Virus record (IMG/VR): IMGVR_UViG_3300032087_001361
Span: 1-26,141 of that record
Origin: a virus
Direction: 5' to 3' (one strand)
Length of the DNA stretch: 26,141 nt
Position numbers and translations under genes: made by a program. The notes below the pieces were generated by a model. The model saw only the letters and a program-made list of their open reading frames with translations, searched no databases and was not told where the DNA came from. Each line of letters opens with the position of its first letter. Within the stretch, counting starts at the first letter, position 1. This document shows, piece by piece, positions 451 to 22,623 of this stretch.

Positions 451-2008
451 TACTCAAGCCACTAAAGAAGATAGAGACGCGGCAACTAGGCTAGCAGTCA
501 AACAAGCACGTGATGACTTACTAGCATTTGTCATGCTGATGAATCCTAGCTTCAATGTGGGACCGCATCACCGTTTGTTATGTGACGAGCTGATGAAACT
601 AGAGGCGGGCGAAACGGATCGACTGATGGTATTCGTATCTCCGCGTTCTTCTAAGTCGCTTATCACCTCAACATACTTCCCAGCATGGGCGCTGGGGCGT
701 AATCCTTACTGGCAAGAGATCGCAGTATCTCACTCAGATGACTTGGCTACCAAGTTTGGTAGAACAATTCGAGACATCATCAACACCACAGCCTACAATA
801 CCATCTTCCCAAAGGTACGAATCAAGAAAGATAACCGTGCGGCGAACTCATGGGCGCTAGAAGAGAGCGGGAAAATAGCTGGCAGCTTCTTGGCTGCAGG
901 TTCTGGCTCTGGTATCGCGGGTTTTGGTGCACACTTAGCTGTGATTGATGACCCAATATCAGAACAAGATGCGTTTTCCAAGACAAGACGTGAACAATTA
1001 AACGAATGGTACGCTTCAGGTTTACGAACACGACTAATGCCAGGCGGAAAAGTGGTGCTCGTGATGACAAGATGGCACGAAAATGACCTAGCAGGTCACT
1101 TGTTAAAGCAACAAGAGGCTTCACCGCTAGCAGATAAGTGGAATGTGGTGCGAATCCCTGCGCTAAACACTGCAGAATCTGCAGAACAACTCACACAAGC
1201 CAGGAATGCGTTGATTGAACAAGGATATTTACCAGAAACTTACCCCGAACCCAAGCTTGGTGAGTCTTTCTGGGGGGCACCTGACCGCGAAAATGGATTT
1301 TGCTGGACAACAGAGGACATTATCCGCACAAAAAACAACACACCCCCGTTTAAATTTGATGCATTGTACTTACAAAGCCCATCATCAGAGACAGGTGGCA
1401 TCATTCAGGTAGATTACTGGCAAGATTGGAGCAGTGAAGACCCGCCTGAGTGCGATTTCATCATTCAATCCTGGGATACAGCGTTTTCCACCCGTACAAC
1501 TGCAGACTATTCTGTGGTTACCACGTGGGGAATCTTTAAGAAAGACGATTTAAGTATGGCAAACATGGTATTGCTAGGAATGGAGAAAGGTCGCTGGGAT
1601 TTTCCTACGCTCAGACAGAAAGCAGTGGACAAATACATGAAGCACAGACCAGATTCCATCGTGATTGAGAAAAAAGCTTCAGGTCAATCTTTGATTCAAG
1701 ACCTAAGACTAGCAGGTTTACCTATTCAAGAGTATCAACCTGACCGAGACAAAGTATCTAGAGCATATGCTATCAGTTCTTTGTTTCACAACGCAAGAAT
1801 CTACGCACCACTAGACAAAGTGTGGGCAAAAGAAACTATTGAAGAGTGTCGCCAGTTCCCATCTGGACCTCATGACGATATTGTGGACTCCGTTACGCAG
1901 GCAGTTCTCTACGTTCGTAATGGTGGCTATCTTGAACATAGTGATAATTCATGGCTTGACTTAGACGAGTCATCAGTGTATAATAGAAAACGCAGACGTT
2001 ATTATTAA
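431..2008 (+). CDS. terL: Terminase large subunit (packaging ATPase and nuclease)
   Basis: Motor protein that cuts concatemeric phage DNA and pumps it through the portal into the prohead. All expected motifs are visible in the 525 residues. A Walker A-like loop SPRSSKS lies at about 70-76 and Walker B HLAVIDDP at about 168-175. A VMTRWHENDL segment at 211-220 is typical of the ATPase coupling motif. The RNase H-like nuclease carries acidic residues at D349 (QSWDTAF), E413 (VIEKK) and D482/D483/D486 (PHDDIVD). The start is uncertain: the longest frame begins with TTG at 431 after an in-frame stop at 413-415, and no strong ribosome site precedes it. The next in-frame ATG lies inside conserved sequence. 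The gene follows terS and precedes the portal. It contains one copy of the GGGGGCAC motif (1273-1280). Confidence 0.95.
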   Translation: MLTSQTNTQATKEDRDAATRLAVKQARDDLLAFVMLMNPSFNVGPHHRLLCDELMKLEAGETDRLMVFVSPRSSKSLITSTYFPAWALGRNPYWQEIAVSHSDDLATKFGRTIRDIINTTAYNTIFPKVRIKKDNRAANSWALEESGKIAGSFLAAGSGSGIAGFGAHLAVIDDPISEQDAFSKTRREQLNEWYASGLRTRLMPGGKVVLVMTRWHENDLAGHLLKQQEASPLADKWNVVRIPALNTAESAEQLTQARNALIEQGYLPETYPEPKLGESFWGAPDRENGFCWTTEDIIRTKNNTPPFKFDALYLQSPSSETGGIIQVDYWQDWSSEDPPECDFIIQSWDTAFSTRTTADYSVVTTWGIFKKDDLSMANMVLLGMEKGRWDFPTLRQKAVDKYMKHRPDSIVIEKKASGQSLIQDLRLAGLPIQEYQPDRDKVSRAYAISSLFHNARIYAPLDKVWAKETIEECRQFPSGPHDDIVDSVTQAVLYVRNGGYLEHSDNSWLDLDESSVYNRKRRRYY

Positions 2009-2018
2009 GGATTGATTT

Positions 2019-4442
2019 ATGGCAGTAGAAAAAAATTTTGACATTCCAGAGGGAGAAGAACTAACTCTCTTTGAAGAATTACCAGAAACTCCAGAGCAAG
2101 ATACAGATGTAATGGTGACACCAGACGGTGGCGCGGAAATTACATTGGAAGACAAAGCGATGATGGAGGAAGCAGAGGCAATGGGTCTCTTTGACGAAAT
2201 GGAGATGAGCCCAGATGCAATGCAACACGACGCGAACCTCGTAGATTTTATAGATAAAAAAGAACTCGACGCGATTGCGAATGAGTTACAAGATTCTTTT
2301 GAACGTGATAAACAATCACGTGATGAATATGATACAATTGCTGAAGAGGGTGTAGACCTTCTTGGTTTTAAAGCAGAAGAAAGTGATGAGCCATTCCCAG
2401 GTGCCTGCGCATCTTCTCATCCTGTTCTATCTCAAGCAGTTGTAAAGTTCCAAGCAAAAGCATACAAAGAATTATTTCCCACTGAAGGTCCAGTGCGTAC
2501 ACGAATTGTTGGTTTACAAACTCAACAAAAAATGGAACAGGCAAATCGTGTGCGTCACTTTATGAATTACCAAACACAAATTCAAATGCCTGAGTACGGT
2601 CCTGAGTTAGACCGTTTATTATTCTATGTGGCATTGTATGGTTCTGCATTTAAGAAAACATATTGGGATACGGCATTACAAAGACCACGTACTGAATATG
2701 TTAAAGCACAAGATTTTTATATTGACTACTATGCATCTGATTTAGAAACAGCAGAAAGATTTACACACAAGTATTCTATGTCTATGAATCAAATCAAAAA
2801 GTTTCAGATGGCTGGAACATTTGCAGATATAGATGTCAATGAAAGTTATTTAGACGAATCATCAGCACAAGAAGCATCAGATGAAATTCTAGGTGTCACA
2901 AAACCTTATGGTGATACAGACCGTGTAGAAATTTTAGAGATGCACGTCAACTTAGACTTACCAGGTTTTGAAGATCCCGATGGATTAAAACTTCCTTACA
3001 TTGTTCACATGACAGACGAAGGAAAGATTCTTGCTATCAGAAGAAACTGGAATGCTGAAGATTTCAAAAAAGAAAAGAAATTATACTTCACCCATTACTA
3101 CATGATTCCTGGTTTAGGTTTCTATGGTTATGGATACTTACACTTGATTGGAGGCTTAACCAAAACCGCAACATCATCTATGAGACAATTAGTAGATGCA
3201 GGTACATTTGCAAATTTACCTGGCGGATTCAAAGCACACGGACTACGAGTGTTGGCACCAGATGAACCAATCGCACCTGGTGAGTGGAGAGAAGTTAATA
3301 GTCCTGCGGGTGACTTAGGTAAATCATTACAACCTTTACCATTCAAAGAACCTTCAGGAACTTTATTTAATTTAATGCAGTATGTTGTTAATGCTGCAAA
3401 AGAGTTTGCTGACTCGGCTGACAACATAGTAGATCAAGCATCTAACTATGGACCTGTTGGCACAACCATGGCTTTGCTTGAGCAAAGTTCTAAGTTGTTC
3501 AGCGCTGTGCACAAGCGTCTGCATAACGCCCAATCCAAAGACCTGCGAATCTTAGCGAGATTAGATTTTGAGTATCTTCCTGATCTGTACCCGTATGAGG
3601 TCGCAGGTGGTGCACAGCAAGTTTTCAAAAATGATTTCAATTTAAAATCAATTGACGTACTTCCTGTCTCCGATCCCAACATGCCAACTGAGGCACACCG
3701 TATTGCAAAGATTAATGCGATTATGCAGATTGCACAACAGAATCCTAATGCATACAACATGGAACAGATTGGAATGGAACTGTTTGCCGCGATGGGTATT
3801 GATGAGCCTCAAAGATATTTGAAGCAACAACAGCAACCGATCTCTGCTGATCCTGTAACTGAAAACATGGCAGCAATGAAAGGTGCCCCCATCCGACCAA
3901 GACCAGATCAAAACCATGACGCTCATATTGTAGCGCATGCTTCGATGATGCAGAATCCTGCATACAAAGAAAATGTGGTAATGGTTCAAACACTGGCTTC
4001 TCACATTCAAGATCACTTGGCAATGAAGTACAGAAACGAAGTAGCACAAATGATTGGTGACCCGCAGATCGTACAAGCGATGATGTCTGGTCAACCGCTT
4101 CCGCCTGAAGTAGAAAATCAAATTGCATTGCTAACTGCAAATGCTTCGGATTCTATTATGAAGTTAGATGAAGAGAAACAAAAGATTATGTCTGGTGAAA
4201 AGAAAGATACAGCAGAGCAACAGATTCAATTACAGCGTGATGATTTAGAATTACGTAGAGCACGACTAGCATTAGACGCGAAAAAGCATCAAGACGAAAT
4301 GTCACTGGAAGAAGCGAAAGTGATGATTAATGATGAGAACACAGACCTAGAGCGTGAACGTAAGATGGCAAAAGATGCTATGGATATGGCGAAGCAAGGA
4401 ATCCAAGATGCAAAGATTATGATTAAACGGGAGGAATTATAA
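2019..4442 (+). CDS. Portal protein (P22-like large form)
   Basis: Dodecameric vertex protein that docks the terminase, lets DNA in and out, and anchors the neck. The 807 residues fit the large portals of P22-like podoviruses. An acidic N-terminus (1-75) is followed by a conserved region with PFPGACASSHPVLSQA at about 124-139. Next come a glycine/tyrosine-rich LGFYGYGYLHLIGG segment near 366-379 and an NLPGGFKAHGLR segment near 400-411. The block ADNIVDQASNYGPVGTTMAL (about 467-486) leads into a long helical part. The last ~110 residues are a charged helix, as expected for a C-terminal barrel or coiled coil. ATG 2019 follows AAGG at 2007-2010. It directly follows terL and ends within the strong ribosome site of the next gene. 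One GTGCCCCC copy lies at 3883-3890. Confidence 0.9.
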   Translation: MAVEKNFDIPEGEELTLFEELPETPEQDTDVMVTPDGGAEITLEDKAMMEEAEAMGLFDEMEMSPDAMQHDANLVDFIDKKELDAIANELQDSFERDKQSRDEYDTIAEEGVDLLGFKAEESDEPFPGACASSHPVLSQAVVKFQAKAYKELFPTEGPVRTRIVGLQTQQKMEQANRVRHFMNYQTQIQMPEYGPELDRLLFYVALYGSAFKKTYWDTALQRPRTEYVKAQDFYIDYYASDLETAERFTHKYSMSMNQIKKFQMAGTFADIDVNESYLDESSAQEASDEILGVTKPYGDTDRVEILEMHVNLDLPGFEDPDGLKLPYIVHMTDEGKILAIRRNWNAEDFKKEKKLYFTHYYMIPGLGFYGYGYLHLIGGLTKTATSSMRQLVDAGTFANLPGGFKAHGLRVLAPDEPIAPGEWREVNSPAGDLGKSLQPLPFKEPSGTLFNLMQYVVNAAKEFADSADNIVDQASNYGPVGTTMALLEQSSKLFSAVHKRLHNAQSKDLRILARLDFEYLPDLYPYEVAGGAQQVFKNDFNLKSIDVLPVSDPNMPTEAHRIAKINAIMQIAQQNPNAYNMEQIGMELFAAMGIDEPQRYLKQQQQPISADPVTENMAAMKGAPIRPRPDQNHDAHIVAHASMMQNPAYKENVVMVQTLASHIQDHLAMKYRNEVAQMIGDPQIVQAMMSGQPLPPEVENQIALLTANASDSIMKLDEEKQKIMSGEKKDTAEQQIQLQRDDLELRRARLALDAKKHQDEMSLEEAKVMINDENTDLERERKMAKDAMDMAKQGIQDAKIMIKREEL

Positions 4443-4443
4443 T

Positions 4444-6867
4444 ATGGTATTTGCTATAGCGGGTGGTGGTCAATTAGGAGTAGCTAATTATCAAATTGAC
4501 AATTCTGTCATGTTTAGTGCTACCGACACTGCGTATATGTCCAGAACACCTAGTAGCACTGGTAATAGACAAAAATTTACATGGAGTGGATGGTTAAAGT
4601 TAGGAACTAAACTTACAACTGAAAACAAAGTTTTTGGGGCAGCAGATACTTCAAATCCAACATATATTCAATTTACGGACAACACTACTTCTGCTTTAAC
4701 AGTAGCTAAATGGACTGGCAGTTCTCATGCTTTCCGATTAACAACAACAAGACTTTTTAGAGATACCGCTGCTTGGTATCATATTGTCATTGCTTTCGAT
4801 ACTACCCAAGCTACTGCTTCTAATAGAATAAAAATATACGTTAATGGTGAACAAGTAACAGATTTTGGTACAGCTAGTTATCCATCACAAAATTACAGCA
4901 CTGATATAAATCACACTGAACCTCATTATTTAGGTTTAACAAGTAACAATACAAGTAATCCTTTTGATGGTTACATGGCTGAAGTTCAACTTATTGATGG
5001 TCAACAATTAGACGCAAGTTCATTTGGCGAAACTGATGCAGATAGTGGAATTTGGAAACCGATTGCTTACACAGGTTCTTATGGAACAAATGGTTTTTAT
5101 TTAGATTTTGGAAATAGTGGAAGTTTAGGTGCTGACCAATCAGGTAATGGCAATAGCTTTACCACTACTAATTTTGCATCTACTGACCAAACTCCCGATA
5201 CTCCTACTAATCACTTTTGTACTTGGAATTACAGAGGAGATACCGCAAGTCATGGAAACTTTATTCATGGAATGTTGCAATACAGTGGACAAAACACTAA
5301 TGCTATTTGGCAAGGATCTCATGGATTTAGATCAGGCAAATGGTATTGGGAACATAAAAACGGAAGTGGTAGTGGATACCCTAGTATTGGAATCCTTTCT
5401 GACAAACATCATGGAGAGTTATCACAAACATTTTTTGCATGGAGAGTTTGGTTACAAACAGGAAATATATATAACGAGGCTGGATCTGTAGGTAGTCTAG
5501 GTGCGTTCAGCAATACTGATATTTTAATGGTAGCTGTTGATGCAGATAATGGCAAAGTGTGGTTTGGTAAAAATGGCTCTTGGTGGAATAGTGGTAACCC
5601 AGCTAGTGGCACAACTCCAGCGTATAGCAACTTACCAACAAGTGGATTTCAACACATAACACCAGCTTTACAACAATACAGATCAGGTAGTACCAACTTT
5701 GGTTATCCGCCTCCAGGTTTTTCTATCGCTAGTGGAAACAGTGATGCTAATGGCTATGGTAACTTTGAGTATGCACCCCCTAGTGGTTTCTATGCCTTAT
5801 GTTCTGCTAACTTAGCTGAGTTTGCAACTCCCGATATTGATAAACCGACAGATTATTTTAATACTGTTTTATATAGTGGCAACGCTGGTACAAATCGTTC
5901 CATAACAGGAATGGGCTTTCAACCAGATTTTCTTTGGCACAAAGAGAGAAGTTCAATTCGTAATTATTCTTTAGTAAATAGTAGCACAGGAACAAATGCA
6001 AGTTTACAAAGCAATAGTGCAGCAGCTGAATCAACCATGCCTTCTTTTGTTAGTTTTGATAGTGACGGATTTACAGTCACTCAAAATGGATCAACAAATC
6101 CAAACTGGAATGAATCTGGAGTCACAAAAGTTGTATGGGGTTGGAAAATCAATGGTGGTTCAACCTCCACTAATACCAACGGAACAATTAGCACAACTGT
6201 TCAGGCTAATCAAGATTTAGGTATAAGTATATTAACTTACACAGGAACTCAAGCAAATGCCACTATAGGTCATGGTTTAAGCAAAGCTCCAGAAGTGATG
6301 ATTGCAAAAATTAGAAATGAAGGAACTTATGGTTGGGGTGGAAACTGGTGGACTTTTAGGAATACAGGACAATTTCAAATAAACACTCAAAGTTCCTACT
6401 ATGAAAATGCAGTCTATTGGCAAAACACAGATCCTAGTAATACAGTAATTACAATGGGTGGACAAGTTGAAGCAAATAGGTCTGGTAAAAACATGATTGC
6501 TTGGTGCTTTCACTCTGTAGAAGGATTTTCTAAAATGGGTGTTTACAAAGGTAATGGAAATAATTTAGGAAAATTTGTTTATACTGGTTTTAAACCAGCT
6601 TTTGTCTTTTTAAAAAGAGCTACCAATACTTCTAACTTTGTTCTTTGGGATGGAGTAAGAAACACTTACAATCAAGGTAATTTTCAATTATTTTCTAACA
6701 GTAGTGAAGCAGAAGATAACACAGGTGCTTTCGATTTCTTATCAAATGGATTTAGATTAAGAAATACTAATGCTACTTGGAACGCAAATGGTGACGAATA
6801 TGTTTATATGGCATTTGCCGAAAATCCTATTGTTTCGTCTACAGGCGTTGTTGGTGGAGCCCGATAG
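4444..6867 (+). CDS. Large lectin-like virion protein with LamG-like, SPRY-like and repeated C-terminal domains
   Basis: An 807-residue protein rich in S, T, N, G and aromatics, typical of beta-rich phage adhesins. Residues ~20-215 resemble a LamG/concanavalin jelly roll (KFTWSGWLKLG, AAWYHIVIAFD, RIKIYVNGEQV). Residues ~265-425 resemble a SPRY domain (SGKWYWEHKNG, then VDADNGKVWFGKNGSWW). The C-terminal ~330 residues hold three diverged copies of one unit starting near 478, 596 and 698: GMGFQPDFLWHKERS, GHGLSKAPEVMIAKIR and YTGFKPAFVFLKRA, two of them followed by an F-x-S-D/N-G-F motif. I recall this unit from marine phage fibres but cannot confirm a family name. Carbohydrate or surface binding is inferred. 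ATG 4444 follows GGGAGGAA inside the portal end. Its position between portal and head genes is unusual for a fibre. Confidence 0.75.
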   Translation: MVFAIAGGGQLGVANYQIDNSVMFSATDTAYMSRTPSSTGNRQKFTWSGWLKLGTKLTTENKVFGAADTSNPTYIQFTDNTTSALTVAKWTGSSHAFRLTTTRLFRDTAAWYHIVIAFDTTQATASNRIKIYVNGEQVTDFGTASYPSQNYSTDINHTEPHYLGLTSNNTSNPFDGYMAEVQLIDGQQLDASSFGETDADSGIWKPIAYTGSYGTNGFYLDFGNSGSLGADQSGNGNSFTTTNFASTDQTPDTPTNHFCTWNYRGDTASHGNFIHGMLQYSGQNTNAIWQGSHGFRSGKWYWEHKNGSGSGYPSIGILSDKHHGELSQTFFAWRVWLQTGNIYNEAGSVGSLGAFSNTDILMVAVDADNGKVWFGKNGSWWNSGNPASGTTPAYSNLPTSGFQHITPALQQYRSGSTNFGYPPPGFSIASGNSDANGYGNFEYAPPSGFYALCSANLAEFATPDIDKPTDYFNTVLYSGNAGTNRSITGMGFQPDFLWHKERSSIRNYSLVNSSTGTNASLQSNSAAAESTMPSFVSFDSDGFTVTQNGSTNPNWNESGVTKVVWGWKINGGSTSTNTNGTISTTVQANQDLGISILTYTGTQANATIGHGLSKAPEVMIAKIRNEGTYGWGGNWWTFRNTGQFQINTQSSYYENAVYWQNTDPSNTVITMGGQVEANRSGKNMIAWCFHSVEGFSKMGVYKGNGNNLGKFVYTGFKPAFVFLKRATNTSNFVLWDGVRNTYNQGNFQLFSNSSEAEDNTGAFDFLSNGFRLRNTNATWNANGDEYVYMAFAENPIVSSTGVVGGAR

Positions 6868-6879
6868 GAGGGGGCACGC

Positions 6880-7179
6880 ATGAGTGATTCAAGATTAAAA
6901 CGAGCAGGAGTTTCAGGGTTCAACAAACCTAAGCGTACTCCTAGTCACCCAAAGAAGTCTCACATTGTTGTGGCGAAAGAGGGCGACAAAATTAAAACAA
7001 TTAGATTCGGTCAACAAGGCAAGAAAGTGGGCACATTGTCTGGCACAGCGGGGGCACCTAAGGCGGGTGAATCTCAACGCATGAAAGCCAAGCGTAAATC
7101 CTTCAAGGCTAGACACGCGAAAAATATTAAGAAGGGCAAGATGTCTGCGGCGTACTGGGCTGACAAAGTCAAGTGGTAG
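6880..7179 (+). CDS. Small, very basic conserved phage protein (function unknown)
   Basis: A 99-residue protein with a high lysine/arginine content and no hydrophobic segment. Motifs include KPKRTPSHPKKSHIVVAKEG, a central TIRFGQQG, then KRKSFKARHAKNIKKGKMS and the ending AAYWADKVKW. The same pattern is familiar from hypothetical proteins of marine phages. The charge suggests nucleic-acid binding or a place inside the virion next to packaged DNA, but that is inference. ATG 6880 is preceded by GGAGG fused to a GGGGGCAC motif (6870-6877). A second GGGGGCAC lies inside the gene (7050-7057, read as AGAP). Its TAG stop shares a G with the GTG start of the next gene. Confidence 0.7.
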   Translation: MSDSRLKRAGVSGFNKPKRTPSHPKKSHIVVAKEGDKIKTIRFGQQGKKVGTLSGTAGAPKAGESQRMKAKRKSFKARHAKNIKKGKMSAAYWADKVKW

Positions 7180-7700
7180 TGAAAGAACTTAGATTATTAT
7201 TTTTTATACTATTGGCTTTTGGATTTGTAGCTGTTACTACAGATTCAAGAGCTGAAACCAATACCGTATCCTCAACCGTAACTGGAACTACAACAGTTGA
7301 TAAAACTCCAAGCACTGCTTCAGCGCCATCTGTGATCGTAAATAATCAAGATGTTTGTACCACGGGTTCGTCGGCTGCTGTGCAAACACAAATACTTGGA
7401 ATCGCAGGAGCAACTGTCAACACAGATGAGAACTGTGAAAGATTAAAATTATCTCGTGCTTTATATGGTATGGGAATGAAAGTGGCAGCAGTATCTGTAC
7501 TGTGTCAAGATGAAAGAGTTTTTACTGCTATGGAAATGGCAGGAACCCCATGTCCATATTTTGGAACTATAGGTGAAGTAGCACAAGCAGGATGGGATTC
7601 ACATCCACAACACAAACCAGGATACAAGGAGCCTATAAACTATGAGAAATATATTGTGGGTAGTCTGTTGGCTATCATTACTGGTTTCGCAATCTTCTAA
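7179..7700 (+). CDS. Exported Cys-containing protein with C-terminal membrane anchor
   Basis: About 173 residues from a GTG at 7179 that overlaps the previous stop (TAGTG); GTG 7173 would add only two residues. The N-terminus is a clear signal peptide (KELRLLFFILLAFGFVAV followed by DSRAE, a likely signal peptidase I site). The mature part has four cysteines in the contexts DVCTTG, ENCERL, VLCQDE and TPCPYF, which could form two disulfides in the periplasm. The last ~16 residues (IVGSLLAIITGFAIF) are hydrophobic enough for a membrane anchor. It is first of three consecutive envelope-directed genes. Function is unknown; lysis, superinfection exclusion or a membrane-contact role are possibilities. 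The coding end overlaps the next gene by 59 nt. Confidence 0.7.
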   Translation: MKELRLLFFILLAFGFVAVTTDSRAETNTVSSTVTGTTTVDKTPSTASAPSVIVNNQDVCTTGSSAAVQTQILGIAGATVNTDENCERLKLSRALYGMGMKVAAVSVLCQDERVFTAMEMAGTPCPYFGTIGEVAQAGWDSHPQHKPGYKEPINYEKYIVGSLLAIITGFAIF

Positions 7701-9075
7701 GGCATACGAACAGCAATATAATGTTGGAGACACTGGTCCTAATGGAGGAGTTGTTACAAGCGTTACCTTGGAATCTATCCTTTCAGATAGTTCTACTGAG
7801 CTGGTAGGCGATTTTCTAGAGACTACAGATACTTACATTTACACAGAAACTATTGTTGAAGAAGTTGAAAATACAACTTACGAAACAGTTCAATCTACTC
7901 AAGAAGTTACAACCAACAATCTTTTAACTAATTCTTTTACAGACACAAACATAAACGTGGTAGGAAACAACTACGGAATGACAGGCGCGGAAATTACCAC
8001 AGGTAATCAAAGCCAAGGCGGTGGTTCTAGAGTTTATGATATTGATGTTTCAGATTATGAAAACATCCAAGAAATAGATTATGGTTCTACTGTGTATTCT
8101 CATAATTCTAATACCAGTGTTCCTTTATGTGCGAATACAACAGGAGATTGTAAAGATCAGTTTAAAATAACTGTACGTTTATATGATAGTGGAGTATTAA
8201 CTAAACAATATACCCACAACTATTCTGGTATTGATTGGGCAGGTAGCCGCGATTATTCATACAATCAAGACGTTTCTAATTTAAGTTTTAATACAGCAGA
8301 GCTAGAGCTTTACGGTATTGATGCTGGATACACAAGCGGTTATTATGGACCAGGATTTAGTGATATGTTTTTCATAGCAACTTATAATCAAATAGCTACA
8401 ATTGTTAATACTATTATCAATACAATAGAACAAACTACAATAAAGCAAACGACAGAATATGTTTATAGTTCAGAATATTTACCACCTGTAGAAGTTGTTT
8501 ATGAACCAATGCCTATAGATATATCTTTTGACATGGAGTTTCAAGACCCTGAAGGGGGCACGGTAGAGTTTGATTTTGTTGTAGTGGAAGATGATTCAGG
8601 TGGTTTTGATTTAGAAATAACTACCTTTGAAGACGAAATGCAAACAGACTTTGAAACAATGGACATTGATGTCCCAATGGATATGGAGGAAATGGCAGAT
8701 GAGATTGACATCGAAATGGATATTACAGAAGAAGAACCCGATAGCGAAACTGCTGGAGAATCCGCTGTGGAGGCAGAGGAAGAAGGAGAACAAGAAAGTG
8801 CACAACCGTCAGAAACTAAAGAAAGAGTTGCACAAAAGATCATGGCACGAGTTGTAGAACAAGGCAACCAAACTGTATTAAATAATGTTAAGCTGGCTGT
8901 CATGGCACAGCTAGCGGACACAGAAGCCTTTGAGCAATATCAAGCTAAACAAATACAAGATAATAATTTTGAAGTATTTATGCGGGAACCCCTTGAAGAT
9001 CCATACGCAATAATGTATGATATGGGCAACGATTATTTAATGGATCAAATGGTGAATCAACAGTGGCAGAACTAG
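7642..9075 (+). CDS. Large secreted acidic protein (function unknown)
   Basis: A 477-residue protein with an N-terminal signal peptide (RNILWVVCWLSLLVSQSSKA, cleavage likely after KA). ATG 7642 has AAGGAG at 7626-7631, inside the preceding gene. The mature protein begins QQYNVGDTGPNGG. It continues with a T/V/E-rich beta-like region to about 300, two cysteines (SVPLCANTTGDCKD), and long acidic stretches (~300-395; for example MDMEEMADEIDIEMDITEEE). It ends in a helical domain (~395-477; KERVAQKIMARVVEQGNQTV). No membrane anchor follows the signal peptide. No homologue with known function is recognised. A secreted acidic protein inside a structural operon could act in the host periplasm late in infection or be virion-borne. 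One GGGGGCAC copy lies at 8554-8561. Confidence 0.65.
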   Translation: MRNILWVVCWLSLLVSQSSKAYEQQYNVGDTGPNGGVVTSVTLESILSDSSTELVGDFLETTDTYIYTETIVEEVENTTYETVQSTQEVTTNNLLTNSFTDTNINVVGNNYGMTGAEITTGNQSQGGGSRVYDIDVSDYENIQEIDYGSTVYSHNSNTSVPLCANTTGDCKDQFKITVRLYDSGVLTKQYTHNYSGIDWAGSRDYSYNQDVSNLSFNTAELELYGIDAGYTSGYYGPGFSDMFFIATYNQIATIVNTIINTIEQTTIKQTTEYVYSSEYLPPVEVVYEPMPIDISFDMEFQDPEGGTVEFDFVVVEDDSGGFDLEITTFEDEMQTDFETMDIDVPMDMEEMADEIDIEMDITEEEPDSETAGESAVEAEEEGEQESAQPSETKERVAQKIMARVVEQGNQTVLNNVKLAVMAQLADTEAFEQYQAKQIQDNNFEVFMREPLEDPYAIMYDMGNDYLMDQMVNQQWQN

Positions 9076-9533: not shown

Positions 9534-9538
9534 ACACA

Positions 9539-9557: not shown

Positions 9558-9586
9558 GTAAACTTCGCTTGCAAAGGAGGTATATT

Positions 9587-9985
9587 ATGACAAGCCTAGA
9601 ACAATACAATCCATTTTGGATAGGATTTGATGATCTATTCAACAGAATGAACTCATTCGAGTACACATCATTCCCACCATATAACATTAAAAAAGTAGAC
9701 TCTGAAAACTATGAGATCGAAATGGCTGTTGCTGGTTTTACCAAAGACGATGTGAAAGTTAAGTATGCAGAAAATACTTTAACCATCACAGGTAAAAAGA
9801 AAGATAAGCAAGAGTCCAAGCAAATGCTACACAAGGGCATATCAGAAAAGAACTTTAGTAAACAGTTCCAACTAGCTGATGACTTTGTGGTTGAAGATGC
9901 AGGGTTGCAAGATGGACTACTTTGTGTTAAACTTAAAAAGATAATTCCTGAAGAGAAGAAGGAAAAGATTATAGACATTAAGTAA
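9587..9985 (+). CDS. hsp20: Small heat shock protein, Hsp20/IbpA-like
   Basis: ATP-independent chaperone that holds unfolding proteins. The ATG at 9587 is chosen because AAAGGAGG (9573-9580) sits 6 nt before it; an upstream TTG at 9569 would place that site inside the coding region. The 132 residues match the IbpA pattern: PFWIGFDDLFNRMN near the start, PPYNIKKVDSENYEIEMAVA opening the alpha-crystallin domain, GFTKDDVKV, NTLTITGKK, HKGISEKNFSKQFQLAD, and the signature AGLQDGLLCVKL followed by an I-x-P tail (KIIPEE). Marine phages, notably T4-like cyanophages, are known to carry hsp20 genes. With its own consensus promoter and the GroES homologue two genes downstream, it probably supports capsid folding or protects host proteins during infection. 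Confidence 0.95.
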   Translation: MTSLEQYNPFWIGFDDLFNRMNSFEYTSFPPYNIKKVDSENYEIEMAVAGFTKDDVKVKYAENTLTITGKKKDKQESKQMLHKGISEKNFSKQFQLADDFVVEDAGLQDGLLCVKLKKIIPEEKKEKIIDIK

Positions 9986-9995
9986 TCTCACTTTC

Positions 9996-10019
9996 GGGGG
10001 TATCTTTCCAGGTGCCCCC
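9996..10019 (+). promoter_or_regulatory. G-run hairpin after hsp20 (GGGGGTATC / GGTGCCCCC arms)
   Basis: Arms 9996-10004 and 10011-10019 pair over nine base pairs, including two G-U wobbles, around a 6-nt loop. The right arm contains the recurring GTGCCCCC motif. The same two arms occur after the capsid gene at 13704-13729 with a different loop. No T-run follows, so a classical intrinsic terminator is doubtful; a processing or stability element is possible. Confidence 0.6.
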
Positions 10020-10043: not shown

Positions 10044-10262
10044 ATGTTAGATCAAGTTAAGAATTACAAAGAACGTATGCAAAAAGTTTTGGCAGAAGCA
10101 ATTGCTGCCAATAATCAGCAACTCCTTAGCGGTACTGCTGATGACTATGCTGCCTATAGATTTTTAGTAGGCATAGGTCAGACATTAAACGACATGTCTG
10201 ATAGACTAGAAACCGAGTACAAGAAATTGTACAAAGACATTGCAGGAGGTAATGATGAGTAA
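10044..10262 (+). CDS. Small helical protein between hsp20 and groES (unknown)
   Basis: 72 residues, predicted almost wholly helical and charged (DQVKNYKERMQKVLAEAIAA at the start, NDMSDRLETEYKKLYKDIAG near the end). There is no signal peptide or membrane segment. ATG 10044 follows AGGAG at 10034-10038 with 5 nt spacing. The end overlaps the GroES start by 8 nt, so the two are probably translated together. I do not recognise a family. Its position between two chaperone genes makes a chaperone-adaptor role conceivable, but a head-assembly factor is equally possible. Confidence 0.65.
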   Translation: MLDQVKNYKERMQKVLAEAIAANNQQLLSGTADDYAAYRFLVGIGQTLNDMSDRLETEYKKLYKDIAGGNDE

Positions 10263-10584
10263 ACTACCAAAGCCACAAGGTTACAGGATGTTACTTAAAC
10301 CATGGGAACCACCAGCCGCAACAGCGGGAGGAATCCTATTATCTGATCAATCCAGAGAGCTCGCAAAATTTGCTTGCGTTGTATCTCAAGTAGTGGATAT
10401 GGGTCCAGAATGTTATAAGAACATGGACAAATCAGAAACAACATGGTGTAAAGTGGGCGACTATGTACTCACTGGTAAGTACGTTGGACTAAAGTTCAAG
10501 TATGAAAACGAAGACTATTCGATCATTAATGATGATGAAGTAGTCGCAATCGTACCAGAACCAGATAAAATAAAACATAGATAA
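10255..10584 (+). CDS. groES: GroES-like co-chaperonin
   Basis: Cap protein for the GroEL folding chamber; phages such as T4 (gp31) supply their own cap so that the capsid protein folds. The 109 residues show the GroES/Cpn10 layout: KPQGYRMLLKPWEPP as first strand, a mobile-loop-like PPAATAGGILLSD that carries the GGI-L motif contacting GroEL, a VVDMGPECYK turn, CKVGDYVLTGKYVGLKFKYE, and the C-terminal NDDEVVAIV. ATG 10255 is chosen because GGAGGT (10245-10250) lies 4 nt before it; ATG 10252 would leave 1 nt. It lies between the 72-aa gene and the scaffold gene, next to the head genes, which fits a role in folding the major capsid protein with host GroEL. The family assignment is firm; the client is inferred. 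Confidence 0.9.
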   Translation: MSKLPKPQGYRMLLKPWEPPAATAGGILLSDQSRELAKFACVVSQVVDMGPECYKNMDKSETTWCKVGDYVLTGKYVGLKFKYENEDYSIINDDEVVAIVPEPDKIKHR

Positions 10585-13688: not shown

Positions 13689-13703
13689 TCACTAATTCGG
13701 ATT

Positions 13704-13729
13704 GGGGGTATCCAACTTGCGGTGCCCCC
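13704..13729 (+). promoter_or_regulatory. G-run hairpin after the capsid gene (same arms as 9996)
   Basis: Arms GGGGGTATC (13704-13712) and GGTGCCCCC (13721-13729) are identical to those at 9996-10019, but the loop differs in length and sequence (8 nt). The conserved arms, including the two wobble positions, indicate a specific element rather than chance. The following bases are TTCC, not a T-run. Partial termination, RNase cleavage or 3' protection of capsid mRNA are candidate roles. Confidence 0.6.
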
Positions 13730-13799
13730 TTCCAAATGGATAAACTAAACAAACCCTAGACTGCACAAAAGCAGACTATATAAAAAAGGAGTATAGACT

Positions 13800-14027: not shown

Positions 14028-14033
14028 TTTAAC

Positions 14034-14051
14034 GGGGGAGGTAACTCCCCC
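14034..14051 (+). promoter_or_regulatory. Perfect hairpin with GTAA tetraloop
   Basis: GGGGGAG (14034-14040) and CTCCCCC (14045-14051) pair perfectly around a GTAA loop, in the 42-nt gap between two small virion genes. There is no T-run, so intrinsic termination is unlikely. It may set mRNA processing or stability, and it lies ahead of an AAGGAG ribosome site. Confidence 0.55.
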
Positions 14052-14069
14052 ACAACAAGGAGTTTATAA

Positions 14070-14375
14070 ATGGTAAGATCAGACTTAAGACCCGTAACAA
14101 GAACAGGCGATGGTCGCATGACTTATACAGATGGTGGTACAGACTACGTAGGAAGAACAAGACTACAGGGTATGATTATTGCCAATGATAATGTAGGTGC
14201 GGGTAGCGTGGTTTTCTATGACAATACATCTGCAACAGGTACAGCTCTATTAACTATTGACGTACCTCAAGGTGATGTAATGAATATAGGATTACCAGAT
14301 GCTGGTGTTCTTTTTAAGACAGGCATTTACGTAGATTTAACAAACATCTCAAGAGTAACTTTATTCGTTCAGTAA
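14070..14375 (+). CDS. Small beta-rich structural protein (101 aa)
   Basis: 101 residues with DYVGRTRLQGMIIANDNVGA, SVVFYDNTSATGTALLTIDV, VMNIGLPDAGVLFKTGIYVD and the ending SRVTLFVQ. This pattern of a short beta sandwich (a DN-x-SATGTALL turn, then G-I-x-F-x-x-G-I-Y-V) is common in small phage proteins encoded between capsid and adaptor genes. A head-surface or neck role is likely but unproven. AAGGAG precedes ATG 14070. Its TAA is followed, in the same reading frame, by GGG GGG CAC and the GTG start of the next gene, so the two frames are separated only by the stop codon. Confidence 0.65.
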   Translation: MVRSDLRPVTRTGDGRMTYTDGGTDYVGRTRLQGMIIANDNVGAGSVVFYDNTSATGTALLTIDVPQGDVMNIGLPDAGVLFKTGIYVDLTNISRVTLFVQ

Positions 14376-14384
14376 GGGGGGCAC

Positions 14385-15098
14385 GTGGCAACTTCTGGCA
14401 CATACACGTTCAGCCTTGACATAGCTGAAATAATACAAGAGGCGCACGAGCGCGTCGGATTAGAACTTAAGTCGGGTTACGACTTAGTAACAGCTAGACG
14501 TTCCCTCAACTTACTTTTAACTAAATGGGTCAATGAAGGTGTGAATCTATTCACTCTTGACCTAACAACAATTAACCTCACAAAAGATCAGACAACCGCG
14601 ACTATTGGTTCAGGTCAATACTTGGACATCTTAGATGCGGCAGTGCGTGATACAAACACATCACCTGTTACTGATACAACATGTGAGAGAATCAGTTTAT
14701 CTGAATATTTAAACTACCCAAACAAATCGACAAGCGGCAAACCTGTGCAATATGCAGTTGAGCGTAACAGCCAATTTGATTCATCAGGTGCAGGCTCGCA
14801 TACGATTCATTTATTTCCTCGACCAAATCAAACTTACTATCAGTTATTATGTTGGACAATCAGATATCCACAAGATGTAACTGATACATACACTCAGAAC
14901 CCAGACATACCTAGAAGATATTTACCTGCGTTAATCAGTGGCTTAGCTTTTGAATTAGCTAACAAGAATCCTGATAAAGTAGATGCAGCTAGACGCGGTG
15001 AATTAAAATCTATTTATTTGGAAGAGTGGCAGTTTGCAAAAGAAGAGGATAGAGAAAGAGCAAGTTTTTATATTCAACCTAAGATTCGCGGGTACTAA
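14385..15098 (+). CDS. Head-tail adaptor, P22 gp4-like tail accessory factor
   Basis: 237 residues that fit the P22 gp4 family, which binds below the portal and closes the filled head. The signature lies near the N-terminus: SGYDLVTARRSLNLLLTKWV followed by NEGVNLFTLDL. It continues with QYLDILDAAVRD, ISLSEYLNYPNK, a GKPVQYAVER strand, IHLFPRPNQTYYQLLCW, and a helical end with RYLPALISGLAFELANKNPD. Translation starts at GTG 14385; no ATG is available nearby, and the GGGGGGCAC motif (14376-14384) touches the start codon. The gene stands at the start of the neck genes, as gp4 does in P22-like genomes. The family assignment is from motif memory. Confidence 0.75.
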   Translation: MATSGTYTFSLDIAEIIQEAHERVGLELKSGYDLVTARRSLNLLLTKWVNEGVNLFTLDLTTINLTKDQTTATIGSGQYLDILDAAVRDTNTSPVTDTTCERISLSEYLNYPNKSTSGKPVQYAVERNSQFDSSGAGSHTIHLFPRPNQTYYQLLCWTIRYPQDVTDTYTQNPDIPRRYLPALISGLAFELANKNPDKVDAARRGELKSIYLEEWQFAKEEDRERASFYIQPKIRGY

Positions 15099-15103
15099 GA
15101 GCG

Positions 15104-16108: not shown

Positions 16109-16113
16109 TATAA

Positions 16114-16806
16114 ATGGGTTTAACATACGATCAACTTAAACAAAATGTACAAGATTGGCTAGAAAATTCAGCCACTTCGTTCACTACAGCAACAGGTAGC
16201 GGCAAAGCTCCCATTGATTTATGTATTGAACTAGCTGAATTGCGTATAGCAAAAGAGGTAGATTTAACTGCCTTTAGAAAAATTTCAACACTATCTTTAT
16301 CAGGGGGCACCTCAACGGTGGCTGTGCCTTCCGACATGGTAGTGCCGCGATATTTAAGGATTCAGAACGGGGATTTCCTACTGGAGAAAGATGAATCATT
16401 CATCAAAGAGTACAGCAAAAATCCTTCGACTGATACAGGCACGGTTAGATACTATGCCTTAAATCAAACTGGAACGACTTATACAAGTGGAAACCGTCAA
16501 ACTAATTTTCTGTTTGGACCAACTCCAGCCCTTGCAACAACAGTCGAAATAGGGTATACTATTAGAGTTCCAGGGTTATCATCAGGTAATCAAAACACTT
16601 ATCTAGGTGATAATGCCCCAGACGCTATACTATACGGCACATTGATCGAAGCTATAGGATACATGAAAGAGACACCTCAAGTAATAGAACTATGGCAGGG
16701 ATATTACAATCGTGCTATTCAAACATTAGCGAATGAGGAACAAGTAAGAATGCGAAATGATGAATTTCGTAATGGTGAACTAAAAACAATGCAGAGAGGA
16801 CAATAA
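16114..16806 (+). CDS. Second neck adaptor-like protein
   Basis: 230 residues with an all-helical start (TYDQLKQNVQDWLENSATSF), a helix IDLCIELAELRIAKEVDLTA, then VAVPSDMVVPRYLRIQNGD and RYYALNQTG, a VEIGYTIRVPGLS strand, and a helical C-terminus (DAILYGTLIEAIGYMKETPQ). This I-x-x-AE-x-RI-x-x-x-x-D-x-x-x-x-R plus proline-aspartate pattern is that of podovirus/siphovirus adaptor proteins such as those of the SU10 type. It would form a ring below the portal. Two adaptor-like genes in one phage may form two stacked rings. The ribosome site is weak (ATAATATAA before ATG 16114), which suggests coupling to the preceding gene. One GGGGGCAC copy lies at 16303-16310. Confidence 0.7.
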   Translation: MGLTYDQLKQNVQDWLENSATSFTTATGSGKAPIDLCIELAELRIAKEVDLTAFRKISTLSLSGGTSTVAVPSDMVVPRYLRIQNGDFLLEKDESFIKEYSKNPSTDTGTVRYYALNQTGTTYTSGNRQTNFLFGPTPALATTVEIGYTIRVPGLSSGNQNTYLGDNAPDAILYGTLIEAIGYMKETPQVIELWQGYYNRAIQTLANEEQVRMRNDEFRNGELKTMQRGQ

Positions 16807-16809
16807 AGC

Positions 16810-17265: not shown

Positions 17266-17267
17266 GT

Positions 17268-19142: not shown

Positions 19143-19151
19143 GGAGATAAC

Positions 19152-19784
19152 ATGTACGCATTAGTAGAAAATAATCAAATTACAAAATACCTAAATGGCA
19201 ACAAAGGTATAACCATTGGCGAAAATCAATATTCTAAATCTATCTTTAGATTATGGACCGAAGAAGAGCGTAATGCGATCGGTATTTATTCTGTTCAGAT
19301 AGACAGTACAAATAAGAAAAACGAAGAGTATTACATCAATACAGATATTACTTACGCATATGCAGATGGCACTGTTACAGGAAGTTACGGCACACCTACC
19401 GCGAAAAATTTAGGCGATACGCTATACACTGCTCAAGATGAAACTGATGGTTTAATTCCTGAAGGTAAGTCTGTAGGAGATGTTGCGGCGGAGGGTTTAA
19501 AGACACAACATAAAAGAGTTATCAAACAACAAGCTGCAGGCTTATTAGCTCCAACAGATTGGTATGTAGTCAAAGCATCAGAAGTTGCAGACTATACTGT
19601 ACCTGCAGATATAACAACATTCCGCGCAGCCGTTCGAACAAAGTCCAATGAAATGGAAACAATGATTGATAGTGTTGCGGATGTCGATGCTTTAGCGGCA
19701 TTATACGAAAACACAAATACTGGAACAGAAGAGAATCCTAGTTACTCAAGACCACTAGGACAGTTCCCTGAATCACCAGTATAG
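19152..19784 (+). CDS. Tail-fibre-associated or assembly-like protein
   Basis: 210 residues. The N-terminus MYALVENNQITKYLNGNKGI and SIFRLWTEEERNAIGIYSVQ resemble the fibre-tip associated domains that follow fibre genes in marine phages. The C-terminal half has LLAPTDWYVVKASEVADYTV, PADITTFRAAVRTKSNEMET and DVDALAALYENT, a helical block typical of tail fibre assembly-like proteins (the DWY-x-V-K plus IP-x-x-x-x-x-R-x-x-x-R layout). It is likely needed to fold or attach the fibre encoded just upstream, 9 nt away, with AAGGAG as ribosome site. Whether it stays in the virion cannot be told. Confidence 0.7.
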   Translation: MYALVENNQITKYLNGNKGITIGENQYSKSIFRLWTEEERNAIGIYSVQIDSTNKKNEEYYINTDITYAYADGTVTGSYGTPTAKNLGDTLYTAQDETDGLIPEGKSVGDVAAEGLKTQHKRVIKQQAAGLLAPTDWYVVKASEVADYTVPADITTFRAAVRTKSNEMETMIDSVADVDALAALYENTNTGTEENPSYSRPLGQFPESPV

Positions 19785-19795
19785 AAAGGACAGTC

Positions 19796-19987
19796 ATGTT
19801 TAAAATAGGAGACAAAGAATATGATGCAGAAAAATTAAGTGATAAAGGAAAAGTATTTCTTAATCAAGTTGTTTCTGCGCAGAATAAAAAGAACAGTTTA
19901 ATTATGGAAGTGGATCAATGTAATGTTTTAATTGAGCACTATATGGCTTTGTTAAAAACAGAAGTTAACCACGAAGAAGAAAAATAA
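19796..19987 (+). CDS. Small DUF6447-like protein
   Basis: 63 residues: FKIGDKEYDAEKLSDKGKVF then LNQVVSAQNKKNSLIMEVDQ, and a charged tail. The opening K-IGDKEYD-x-x-x-LS-x-x-GK is the pattern I associate with DUF6447, small phage proteins that often follow the tail-fibre genes of marine phages. The rest is helical and may be a coiled coil. AAAGGA precedes ATG 19796. The stop overlaps the next start as TAATG. The function is unknown. Confidence 0.65.
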   Translation: MFKIGDKEYDAEKLSDKGKVFLNQVVSAQNKKNSLIMEVDQCNVLIEHYMALLKTEVNHEEEK

Positions 19988-20187
19988 TGAAAATAGACCT
20001 CAAGTTAATAGCGCCTTATATCGTGATGGCATTTGGTATTGCAGTATCTTGGGGTATGTTTTCAGCTCGATTAGATGCGGTGGAACAAAAGGTTGATGCC
20101 GTATCACAGATGCAACAGGACGTTGCCATTATCAAAGAGAAGATAATGTGGATGGAGAATTATTTAATATCAATACCTAAGCGGTAG
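19987..20187 (+). CDS. Small one-pass membrane protein with coiled coil
   Basis: 66 residues. A short basic start (KIDLK) leads into one membrane segment (~7-25; LIAPYIVMAFGIAVSWGMF), followed by a short coiled coil (ARLDAVEQKVDAVSQMQQDV) and a basic end. The start overlaps the preceding stop (TAATG). The architecture fits a holin-like or holin-modulating protein, but also a generic membrane anchor. No endolysin is next to it, so a lysis role is only a possibility. The same layout, larger, is seen in the gene at 9063. Confidence 0.65.
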   Translation: MKIDLKLIAPYIVMAFGIAVSWGMFSARLDAVEQKVDAVSQMQQDVAIIKEKIMWMENYLISIPKR

Positions 20188-20206
20188 GGAAGGGGGCACG
20201 GGCAAA

Positions 20207-22057
20207 ATGCCATTCGTACAATTAACAGCGCCTCCAGGGGTTATCACAGACATCACAGACTACCAAGCGCAAATGCGTTACACAAACGCAGACAAGGTGC
20301 GCTTCTTCCAAGGTTATGCTGAGAAGATTGGTGGCTGGACAAAACGATTCTCTTCATCACAGATAAGCGGTGTATCGCGAAACATCTTTCCACACAGAGA
20401 TTTAAATGGTACCAAGTATATTCTTTATGGAACATCTACGCATGTCTATGCTGAGTATGGTGGTACCATGTATGACATCACTCCGTATCGAACTGATACA
20501 CGGTCACTAACTAATCCTTACACAACAGGTGCGGCAGGTACAAGCACAGTTACAGTCACTGACGTATCCCATGGTTTAGCTAATACTCAACCAGGTTCAC
20601 GTGTCGTGATAGATACAGCAGTAACCTTAGATGGTATTACAATTGCGGCAGGTGAATACATTGCAACTTTCATTGATACTAATTCTTATACTATCACAGG
20701 TTCAGGCACAGCAACCACAGGCGGTGTAACGGGCGGCGGATCGGTTGACTTACGTTATCTTGTAAACAATGGTCCTTCTGACGGTTTAACAGGTTATGGT
20801 TTTGGCGCAGGTCTTTGGGGAACTGCTTCATGGGGTACAGCAAGAAGTACTTCAGGTATTGTATTATCACCAAGAGTTTGGTCAATGGATGCTTGGGGCG
20901 AAGACATTGTAGCGTCAATAGGTGGCGGTGAAGATACTATTTATTATTTTGACATCAGTGCTTTTGTGGCTTCCCCTTCTACATTCCGAGGAACTACTTT
21001 AGCTTATTACGTTACTAATACTTTAAGTGGTGATGCTTCTCAAATACCTGATAAAGTCGGACAAGTCATGGTATCAACACCAGACAGACACTTAATTTGT
21101 TTTGGTGCTAATCCTGTAGGATCATCAGATTATGATCGTTTGACTGTGCGTTTTTCAAATCAAGAAGATTTACAAACATGGACACCTCAGCTGATTAATA
21201 CAGCTGGTGAACAAAGACTAGGTACAGGTACAAACATTGAAGCGGTAGAAAAAGGTCGTGGTCAAATATTCTTATGGACAGATGTGGATGTCTATTCAAT
21301 GCAGTTTATCGGTCCACCATTTACATTCTCATTCTCAGTGTTGGGAGAAATATCTGGTACCATATCCAAGAACGCGGCAACCACTATTGAGGGTGCGGCA
21401 TTCTGGATGGGTGTGGATAACTTCTATATGTATGATGGTGCGGTGCGAACTCTTGAGTGCCCCGTCTTGACTCACGTGTTTGATGACTTTAACCAAGTAC
21501 AAAGAGAGAAAGTTTTCTGTGGACAGAATATTAAGTTCAATGAACTATGGTGGTTCTATCCATCAGCAGATGCAACCGAGATTGATAGTTATGTTATCTA
21601 TAATTATATTGACAAGACTTGGTCTATTGGAACTTTAGATAGAACTGCTTGGGCAGATTCTAATATCTTTAGTAACCCACTAGCTGTTGATCCGACAGGA
21701 CTTCAATACAATCAAGAAGATGGAGTCAACGCGGCAGGTAGTGCAATCACTGCTTTTGTGGAAACTGGTTTCTTTAATGGTGATCCAAATGGGGACAATG
21801 TCTATTTCTTAGATCGTGTAATTCCCGATGTTACATTTAAAAATGGAACAGCAATGAAGTTTACTTTGAAGAGTAAGATATATCCGCAGAGTGAACAAAT
21901 AACTAAAGGACCTTTCACCATTAATTCGACAGATGGTGAATTTAATTTTCGCGCTCGAGGTAGATCGTTTCAAGCGAGATATGAATCTGATGCGACAGAT
22001 GTATCATGGAGATTAGGTACATGGCGCGCGGATGGTAGACAGGATGGATTAAGGTAA
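20207..22057 (+). CDS. P22 gp10-like packaged-DNA stabilisation / tail nozzle protein
   Basis: 616 residues. The start FVQLTAPPGVITDITDYQAQ then WTKR, the repeated RFFQGYAEKIGG element, and strands such as IFPHRDLNGTKYILYGTSTH point to the beta-propeller of P22 gp10, which plugs and stabilises the filled head below gp4. Other family-like motifs are SNQEDLQTWTPQ, FLWTDVDVYSMQFIG, AFWMGVDNFYMYDGAVRTLE and the ending VSWRLGTWRADGRQDGLR. An insertion at about 100-180 (VTVTDVSHGLANTQPGSRVV) looks like an extra beta domain, making it longer than P22 gp10. A GFGAGLWGTASWG segment near 197-209 echoes the end of the repeat protein at 15104. A GGGGGCAC motif (20192-20199) lies 7 nt before ATG 20207. 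Confidence 0.8.
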   Translation: MPFVQLTAPPGVITDITDYQAQMRYTNADKVRFFQGYAEKIGGWTKRFSSSQISGVSRNIFPHRDLNGTKYILYGTSTHVYAEYGGTMYDITPYRTDTRSLTNPYTTGAAGTSTVTVTDVSHGLANTQPGSRVVIDTAVTLDGITIAAGEYIATFIDTNSYTITGSGTATTGGVTGGGSVDLRYLVNNGPSDGLTGYGFGAGLWGTASWGTARSTSGIVLSPRVWSMDAWGEDIVASIGGGEDTIYYFDISAFVASPSTFRGTTLAYYVTNTLSGDASQIPDKVGQVMVSTPDRHLICFGANPVGSSDYDRLTVRFSNQEDLQTWTPQLINTAGEQRLGTGTNIEAVEKGRGQIFLWTDVDVYSMQFIGPPFTFSFSVLGEISGTISKNAATTIEGAAFWMGVDNFYMYDGAVRTLECPVLTHVFDDFNQVQREKVFCGQNIKFNELWWFYPSADATEIDSYVIYNYIDKTWSIGTLDRTAWADSNIFSNPLAVDPTGLQYNQEDGVNAAGSAITAFVETGFFNGDPNGDNVYFLDRVIPDVTFKNGTAMKFTLKSKIYPQSEQITKGPFTINSTDGEFNFRARGRSFQARYESDATDVSWRLGTWRADGRQDGLR

Positions 22058-22254
22058 TGGCATTATACAGCAGACCATCATATCCCGAACCTTCATACAA
22101 AGAACGTATGGAAGGTAAAATTGACGTAAGAACATATGACGCCTTGATACAGGTTTTAAAACTAAGGGATTATTCAGAAGAGAATCCACCAGTGAAGATA
22201 GCAGACCAAACAGAGATTAGAGCAATGGCTTGGTTTTTAGGAGATCATGTTTAA
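22057..22254 (+). CDS. Small protein (65 aa), unknown
   Basis: 65 residues: ALYSRPSYPEPSYKERMEGK, then IDVRTYDALIQVLKLRDYSE and DQTEIRAMAWFLGDHV. There is no membrane segment. The start overlaps the gp10-like gene's stop and the stop overlaps the next start, both as TAATG, so it is translated with its neighbours. Its compact charged character and position suggest a minor tail or neck factor. No family is recognised. Confidence 0.6.
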   Translation: MALYSRPSYPEPSYKERMEGKIDVRTYDALIQVLKLRDYSEENPPVKIADQTEIRAMAWFLGDHV

Positions 22255-22592
22255 TGTCAACATTATATAAATCGACAGGTTTTAATTTAACAACAACTGC
22301 TATAACAAATGTTTACACTTGCCCAGCAGAAACAGAAACTATTATTAAGAATGTCCAGACACACAACTATGGTGGTAATAATGTGGTGTTTGAAATATAT
22401 ATCAGTAAGAACGGGACTGACTATGATATAGCACACCATACAATGACTGCAAAAGATTCGATCAATGCCGTGGATGGTGTATTGGTTTTAGAAGAAGGTG
22501 ATATATTGAAAATGCAAGCAGCCACGGCTAACGCGATTAGCGGTTTGATTTCATATTTGGAGGTTAGAAGTGATACGAAAAACCCGATATAA
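22254..22592 (+). CDS. Small beta-rich tail-region protein (112 aa)
   Basis: 112 residues from ATG 22254, which overlaps the previous stop; a longer frame from 22230 is unlikely because it would overlap the upstream gene by 25 nt. The sequence has TLYKSTGFNLTTTAITNVYT, ETETIIKNVQTHNYGGNNVV, FEIYISKNGTDYDIAHH and VLEEGDILKMQAATANAISG. This is the pattern of small beta-sandwich proteins often found late in phage tail modules, possibly on the virion surface. A hairpin containing the GTGCCCCC motif follows the stop. Confidence 0.65.
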   Translation: MSTLYKSTGFNLTTTAITNVYTCPAETETIIKNVQTHNYGGNNVVFEIYISKNGTDYDIAHHTMTAKDSINAVDGVLVLEEGDILKMQAATANAISGLISYLEVRSDTKNPI

Positions 22593-22599
22593 TTTCGCC

Positions 22600-22623
22600 G
22601 TGCCCCCCTTGTATTCGGGGCAT
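22600..22623 (+). promoter_or_regulatory. Hairpin containing GTGCCCCC before the internal-protein block
   Basis: GTGCCCC (22600-22606) pairs with GGGGCAT (22617-22623) over seven base pairs, including one G-U, around a 10-nt loop. It sits in the 48-nt gap between the last small tail gene and the first ejection-like gene. It is followed by AAAAAGG rather than T residues, so an intrinsic terminator on this strand is unlikely. Confidence 0.5.

Follow-up and report, generated by a model that had tools for sequence, protein, structure and literature searches.

In a clade of uncultured marine phages, the octamer GGGGGCAC serves as a signal in double-stranded DNA that is kept by selection, and we are nearly certain that it is a word selected at the level of DNA. 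It was found in a 26-kb virus record (G000; IMG/VR record IMGVR_UViG_3300032087_001361, positions 1 to 26,141; GC content of 39.9%), referred to here as the window, which carries tailed-phage packaging and structural genes (those for the terminase large subunit, the portal, the capsid, and virion structural proteins) together with genes for GroES and Hsp20. The cultured phages nearest to the window by portal protein are only ~37 to 43% identical to it, and include Pelagibacter phages HTVC023P and HTVC027P, Roseobacter phages CRP-901/902, and phage DSL-LC04. The relatives closer to the window than these are uncultured contigs, which were assigned to lineages A (which includes the window), B, C1 to C3, and D according to the identity of their portal or PolA proteins.

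The window contains 11 exact copies of GGGGGCAC (plus strand, 7; minus strand, 4), whose positions are exactly those reported in a first-pass annotation made from the letters of the window. That annotation estimated that about 0.2 copies were expected. Dinucleotide shuffles of the window gave a mean of 0.26 copies, with 0 of 100 shuffles reaching 11, and ranking all 8-mers of the window, a check that the annotation had proposed, placed GGGGGCAC first (11 copies versus 0.09 expected under an order-2 Markov model), making the evidence for over-representation stronger than had been claimed. The expectation stays below one copy under Markov models of orders 1 to 4 (0.21, 0.09, 0.34, and 0.86, respectively) and rises to 3.6 and 7.8 copies under orders 5 and 6 only because the underlying 6-mer and 7-mer counts include GGGGGCAC itself. 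As previously annotated, six of the 11 copies are located outside genes, which leave only 3.9% of the window positions uncovered, and most copies (8 of 11) are part of the longer GGGGGCACCT or GGGGGCACGG. The peptides encoded at the five genic copies are WGAP, GAP(I), AGAP, GGT, and GGT.

The word is the top 8-mer in 152 kb of lineage A, in 192 kb of lineage B, and in the lineage D loci. Three near-complete contigs contain 27 copies in 51.9 kb (G002), 24 copies in 60.6 kb (G005), and 15 copies in 55.7 kb (G017, lineage D), split by strand as 16/11, 11/13, and 7/8, respectively, and the reversed word, used as a control, is present in 0 copies in each of them. The density in these phages is 0.3 to 0.5 per kb, corresponding to an observed-to-expected ratio (O/E) of ~60 to 150 under the order-2 Markov model. 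In contrast to the exact word, its one-letter variants are near background in lineages A and B. Altered words are found in other lineages (GGGGGCAM, RGGGGCAC, and GGGGGCAN): C1 and C2 use GGGGGCAC or GGGGGCAA, contigs G012 and G778 use GGGGGCA followed by any letter, and D (G017) and C3 use GGGGGCAC plus AGGGGCAC. These variants fall mostly by clade in a PolA tree, in which a group initially labeled E (L154 and L155) is the C3 branch of C, and in which D and C3, both with a relaxed first letter, are separate branches. Such lineage-linked variation is what one expects if the reader of the word changes with the lineage. Among 87 sites with dissimilar flanks, purines are weakly favored at positions −3 to −1, as are G at +8 to +10 and A at +12 and +13. 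The cultured relatives examined contain 0 to 3 copies of GGGGGCAC, as counted for most of them in the first 50 kb of the record. In the records L082 (HTVC023P) and L083 (023Pt_psg01), words of the CCGCCACC/CCACCACC type are strongly enriched on one strand and are probably glycine-rich coding repeats. A literature search for the word GGGGGCAC returned no relevant match.

Synonymous-codon shuffles, which preserve every protein and the codon usage, were used to determine the contribution of coding to the genic copies. G002 has 15 sense and 5 antisense genic copies versus 0.34 and 0.14 expected, and G005 has 14 and 4 versus 0.23 and 0.08. Thus, the genic excess is not due to coding, in agreement with the first-pass annotation, which had drawn this conclusion from the genic copies of the window being read in more than one frame. 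The density of GGGGGCAC is ~6-fold higher between genes than within them (1.89 versus 0.30 per kb). Gaps between codirectional genes contain 10 sense and 11 antisense copies, and the sense bias of the genic copies is about that given by coding alone. Once the coding constraint is removed, the word is orientation neutral.

Retention of the word in place was assessed in codon alignments of orthologs, at sites with identical amino acids, with GC-rich words as controls. Nine of 10 copies of G005 are retained in G002 (33% for controls; P = 3e-4), 9 of 11 copies of G002 are retained in G005 (21% for controls; P = 3e-5), and all 5 such copies of G017 are retained in G005 (14% for controls; P = 5e-5). 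The same analysis of GGGGGCA in C1 and C2 revealed retention of 6 of 6 copies (19% for controls; P = 5e-5). Both the enrichment and the conservation that the first-pass annotation had expected of homologous phages, were its proposal sound, are therefore found in the relatives of the window. At the portal peptide K-G-A-P, the window and some lineage A relatives have GGTGCCCCC and lineage B and most of lineage C have GGGGGCACC, which places the word on one strand in the former and on the other strand in the latter. Most other members of lineage A have GGTGCCCCT at this site, indicating that it is not retained by all. Sites also turn over, since for a given lineage one-third to four-fifths of the genic copies have no counterpart at the same place in another, with similar densities; in the polymerase gene, for example, the positions in lineage D partly differ from those in lineages A and B.

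Among the genic copies of the window, the plus-strand copy at 1273..1280 lies in the terminase large subunit gene (W-G-A-P) and is retained in G002, and the minus-strand copy at 3883..3890 lies in the portal gene (K-G-A-P), in codons that bear the opposite-strand word in other lineages. The plus-strand copies at 7050..7057, in a small gene at 6880-7179 (A-G-A-P), and at 8554..8561, in a gene at 7642-9075 (G-G-T), are absent at these sites in G002 and G005. The fifth, on the plus strand at 16303..16310 in a gene at 16114-16806 (G-G-T), has an equivalent by context at 2349 in G017 and is absent in G005. Three plus-strand copies occupy gaps between a stop and a start codon: 6870..6877 in a 12-bp gap (stop at 6867, start at 6880; equivalent at 44312 in G002), 14377..14384 in a 9-bp gap (stop at 14375, GTG start at 14385; equivalent at 51815 in G002, lost in G005), and 20192..20199 in a 19-bp gap (stop at 20187, start at 20207; equivalents at 872 in G002 and 10672 in G005). 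The three intergenic minus-strand copies are located at 10012..10019, after the Hsp20 gene and in the same place in G002 and G005; at 13722..13729, after the major capsid gene and in a hairpin arm (equivalents at 51191 in G002, 59607 in G005, and 4733 in G017); and at 22600..22607, between 22592 and 22641 (equivalents at 3283 in G002 and 13076 in G005). The Hsp20 small heat shock protein and the GroES cochaperonin (9569-9985 and 10240-10584) are phage borne and encoded within the structural module; an Hsp20 homolog was not detected in the lineage D contig G017.

The first-pass annotation had proposed several roles for the word, among which a Chi-like or other dispersed DNA mark is supported by selection at the DNA level, presence on both strands, neutral orientation, retention in place, and a density kept despite turnover. 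The other roles, except for regulator binding, which is considered below, did not withstand the analysis. RNA processing is unsupported, and a ribosome-binding or other RNA signal would be expected in the sense orientation, whereas the word has no preferred orientation. A mobile hairpin or other mobile element is not supported either, since the word is nonpalindromic, its copies lie in unrelated flanks, and the alignments show that those within genes arise by substitution. A packaging mark needs one or a few sites, versus the 15 to 27 copies found. An intrinsic terminator stem was also rejected, as only two of the six intergenic copies of the window are in strong hairpins, none of which was listed as terminator-like. 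The copy at 10012..10019 forms the 3' arm of an RNA hairpin, and the partner arm is not GGGGGCAC; no partner arm was visible next to the corresponding copies in G017 and G010, whose sequences were read by eye and not folded. Another strong GC-rich hairpin, GTGGGGGAGTTACCTCCCCCGT, is present on the minus strand at 14032-14053, between two small variable genes, and is resembled by G-runs at 51472 and 51485 in G002. The spacing of the copies is random or only slightly more even than that (P = 0.009 to 0.20), no orientation domains were found, and marking of the boundaries between conserved and variable modules by intergenic copies, striking by eye in the window, did not reach significance across three genomes (7 of 35 versus 4 of 38 gaps; P = 0.33).

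Our favored explanation, to which we assign a probability of roughly 40% as a whole, is that GGGGGCAC marks the double-stranded phage genome for recognition and that selection has spread it over both strands at a density of ~0.3 to 0.5 per kb. It would act like Chi, as a frequent, short, asymmetric, G-rich label telling a DNA-processing enzyme that it has met phage DNA. On meeting the word, this enzyme would change its behavior and stop degrading, load a recombinase, or cut. The word may accordingly serve in end processing, recombination, or self-recognition, and a Chi-like or self-label role of this kind is put forward tentatively. No matching enrichment was found in a scan of 385 alphaproteobacterial and 398 Pseudomonadota genomes (~750 distinct), and we therefore lean toward a reader encoded by the phage, most likely within a conserved replication and recombination block. 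This block, which is common to the word-bearing lineages, comprises a family A polymerase, a separate exonuclease/uracil-glycosylase protein, a DUF3987-type primase, a Sak4-like annealing protein, and a Cas4/RecB-like PD-(D/E)XK nuclease (L089:1884-2843 in G005); cultured relatives that lack the block also lack the word. In G005, DNA polymerase A appears split, with a protein combining uracil-glycosylase-like and 3'-5' exonuclease domains (L089:4341-5423) separate from the polymerase-domain protein (L089:5934-7490).

Adjoining the block is a gene for a protein of 412 residues, in which a Fis-type helix-turn-helix (HTH) at the N terminus is combined with an Mre11/SbcD-like phosphoesterase domain (L089:15521-16756 in G005; L294:18188-19417; L284:14971-16197). 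The gene is present in every lineage whose contigs cover its position; an early impression that it was missing from lineage C was wrong, as the first contigs did not cover that position. The motifs DxH, GGD, GNH, H, and GHxH are intact across 11 sequences, down to 60% identity. Structure prediction returned a confident three-helix N terminus, corresponding to the HTH, and the best Foldseek matches were the metallophosphoesterases LpxH and MRE11, with low TM-scores. A tblastn search of a public phage collection with this protein identified only distant relatives, and MW202713, which carries one of them (42% identical), has no comparable word. Such a nuclease with a sequence-reading domain could tell phage from host DNA by the dense word, leading to the selective degradation of host DNA or processing of phage ends. 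This self-label scheme is unlikely in its full form; if true, it would amount to a Chi-like self/non-self code both written and read by the phage.

Several points weigh against this interpretation. The control 8-mers of the retention test were matched for GC content and not for the G-run itself, and homologous sites are nonindependent observations. The predicted structure of the HTH-phosphoesterase is weak outside the HTH (mean pLDDT of 58). Since the protein shares its distribution with the whole block, co-occurrence does not single it out, and we infer only that it is a candidate, and a doubtful one, for the reader of GGGGGCAC. Finally, the sampling of potential hosts was thin (~750 Pseudomonadota species), so that the scan only lowers the likelihood of a host Chi site. 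Searches for the host gave no lead: a portal search of genome contigs found no relatives, and an NrdB search matched contigs of metagenome-assembled genomes (MAGs) that are probably phage. Two of these, L176 and L177, carry phage-like NrdB genes (69 to 72% identical) and are binned to Neomarinimicrobiota and Pelagibacter MAGs, probably as phage contigs in bins.

The word could instead be the Chi site of a host AddAB or RecBCD, kept by the phage so that the enzyme repairs its DNA rather than degrading it. The density and both-strand spread of GGGGGCAC fit this proposal, as does its form, since the Chi words known so far are exact, asymmetric, and short, and most have a high GC content (PMC5959072, Table 3); moreover, phages without RecBCD inhibitors, including the virulent phage T5, over-represent Chi (PMC3784561). 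However, no genome in the host scan came near the phage density. The 20 alphaproteobacteria with the largest excess over the reversed word included 15 that could be modeled from the first sample, and their order-2 O/E ranged from 0.55 to 1.96, compared to a reported 4- to 8-fold enrichment for Chi in E. coli (PMC5959072); the densest genome, G103, had an O/E of ~1.9 after more sequence was read. Variation of the word between related phage lineages also argues against a host Chi site, as do viral contigs with close pairs of GGGGGCAC (45 hits), for which the 15 whole records checked contain local clusters, such as coding repeats and iteron-like clusters, and no dispersed word. We consequently regard this proposal as rather improbable, although it remains the strongest competitor. 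Dense one-spot clusters of GGGGGCAC occur in two unrelated viral contigs, at L318:6775-6957 and L333:4444-4628, within TGGGGGCACAT and TCAGGGGGCACTT repeats, and resemble iterons or transposase-binding clusters.

Binding of a phage regulator or DNA-organizing protein to dispersed sites, as for the stoperators of Cluster A mycobacteriophages, would account for the 15 to 27 copies, for the asymmetry of the word and its enrichment between genes, and for its weak extended footprint (−3 to +13). Stoperators are predominantly aligned with transcription (PMC6550527), an alignment that GGGGGCAC does not show between genes and shows within genes only to the extent imposed by coding. Many copies are in gene interiors, and neither an integrase nor an immunity repressor turned up in the proteins scanned, which included only part of the small unknown genes. 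Regulator binding, also suggested in the first-pass annotation, is thus unlikely, the lack of orientation to transcription arguing specifically against promoter or stoperator roles. Site-specific nicking or replication priming, by analogy with the localized nicks of T5, phiKMV-like, and tf phages, is less probable still: the word is exact and repeated and the conserved phosphoesterase with its predicted DNA-binding domain adjoins the replication block, but the 14 nicks of tf (TACTRTGMC) are all on the top strand (PMC3517423), whereas GGGGGCAC uses both strands almost equally. Least plausible, and in our opinion very improbable, is a mutational by-product without direct selection for function, along the lines of the model for cyanobacterial HIP1, in which a methylated word undergoes biased repair (PMC4390886). 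HIP1 offers a precedent, and the background level of the near variants of GGGGGCAC is compatible with such a process. The 6-fold intergenic preference and the retention far above controls fit selection better, the word is nonpalindromic, and the G005 proteins scanned, which did not amount to an exhaustive annotation, included no methyltransferase.

If the reader is encoded by the phage, the word would represent a self-recognition code without description in the literature searched; if it is a host enzyme, the word would be a Chi of that host and offer a route to host assignment. These phages provide a system for testing how phages label their own DNA, in which the paired variation of word and lineage is a route to the reader.

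Comparison with known systems places the word outside three classes that it partly resembles. Like HIP1 of cyanobacteria, it has eight letters, is grossly over-represented, is replaced by other words in particular lineages, and is of debated function, but HIP1 is palindromic and tied to methyltransferases, and GGGGGCAC is asymmetric. With stoperators it shares 20 to 30 asymmetric sites per phage genome and lineage-specific variants, and it differs from them by an orientation-neutral core of 8 bp instead of 13 to 14 bp aligned with transcription. The localized interruptions of T5, phiKMV-like, and tf phages are likewise repeated exact words in phage genomes, although those of tf are confined to one strand. 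In its probable working, the word most resembles Chi as read by RecBCD, AddAB, or RexAB, a resemblance that falls short of showing that it is Chi: both are short, exact, asymmetric, G-rich words acting at the DNA level and present in many copies on both strands of phage genomes, in genes and in gaps. Unlike Chi, GGGGGCAC has no enriched host genome among the ~750 Pseudomonadota sampled, and it drifts between related phage lineages. Its density and O/E (0.3 to 0.5 per kb and ~60 to 150) also contrast with those of Chi in E. coli (~0.2 per kb and 4- to 8-fold). A clade of uncultured marine phages thus maintains a genome-wide word with a strength exceeding the enrichment known for Chi, and the words of related lineages are themselves related.

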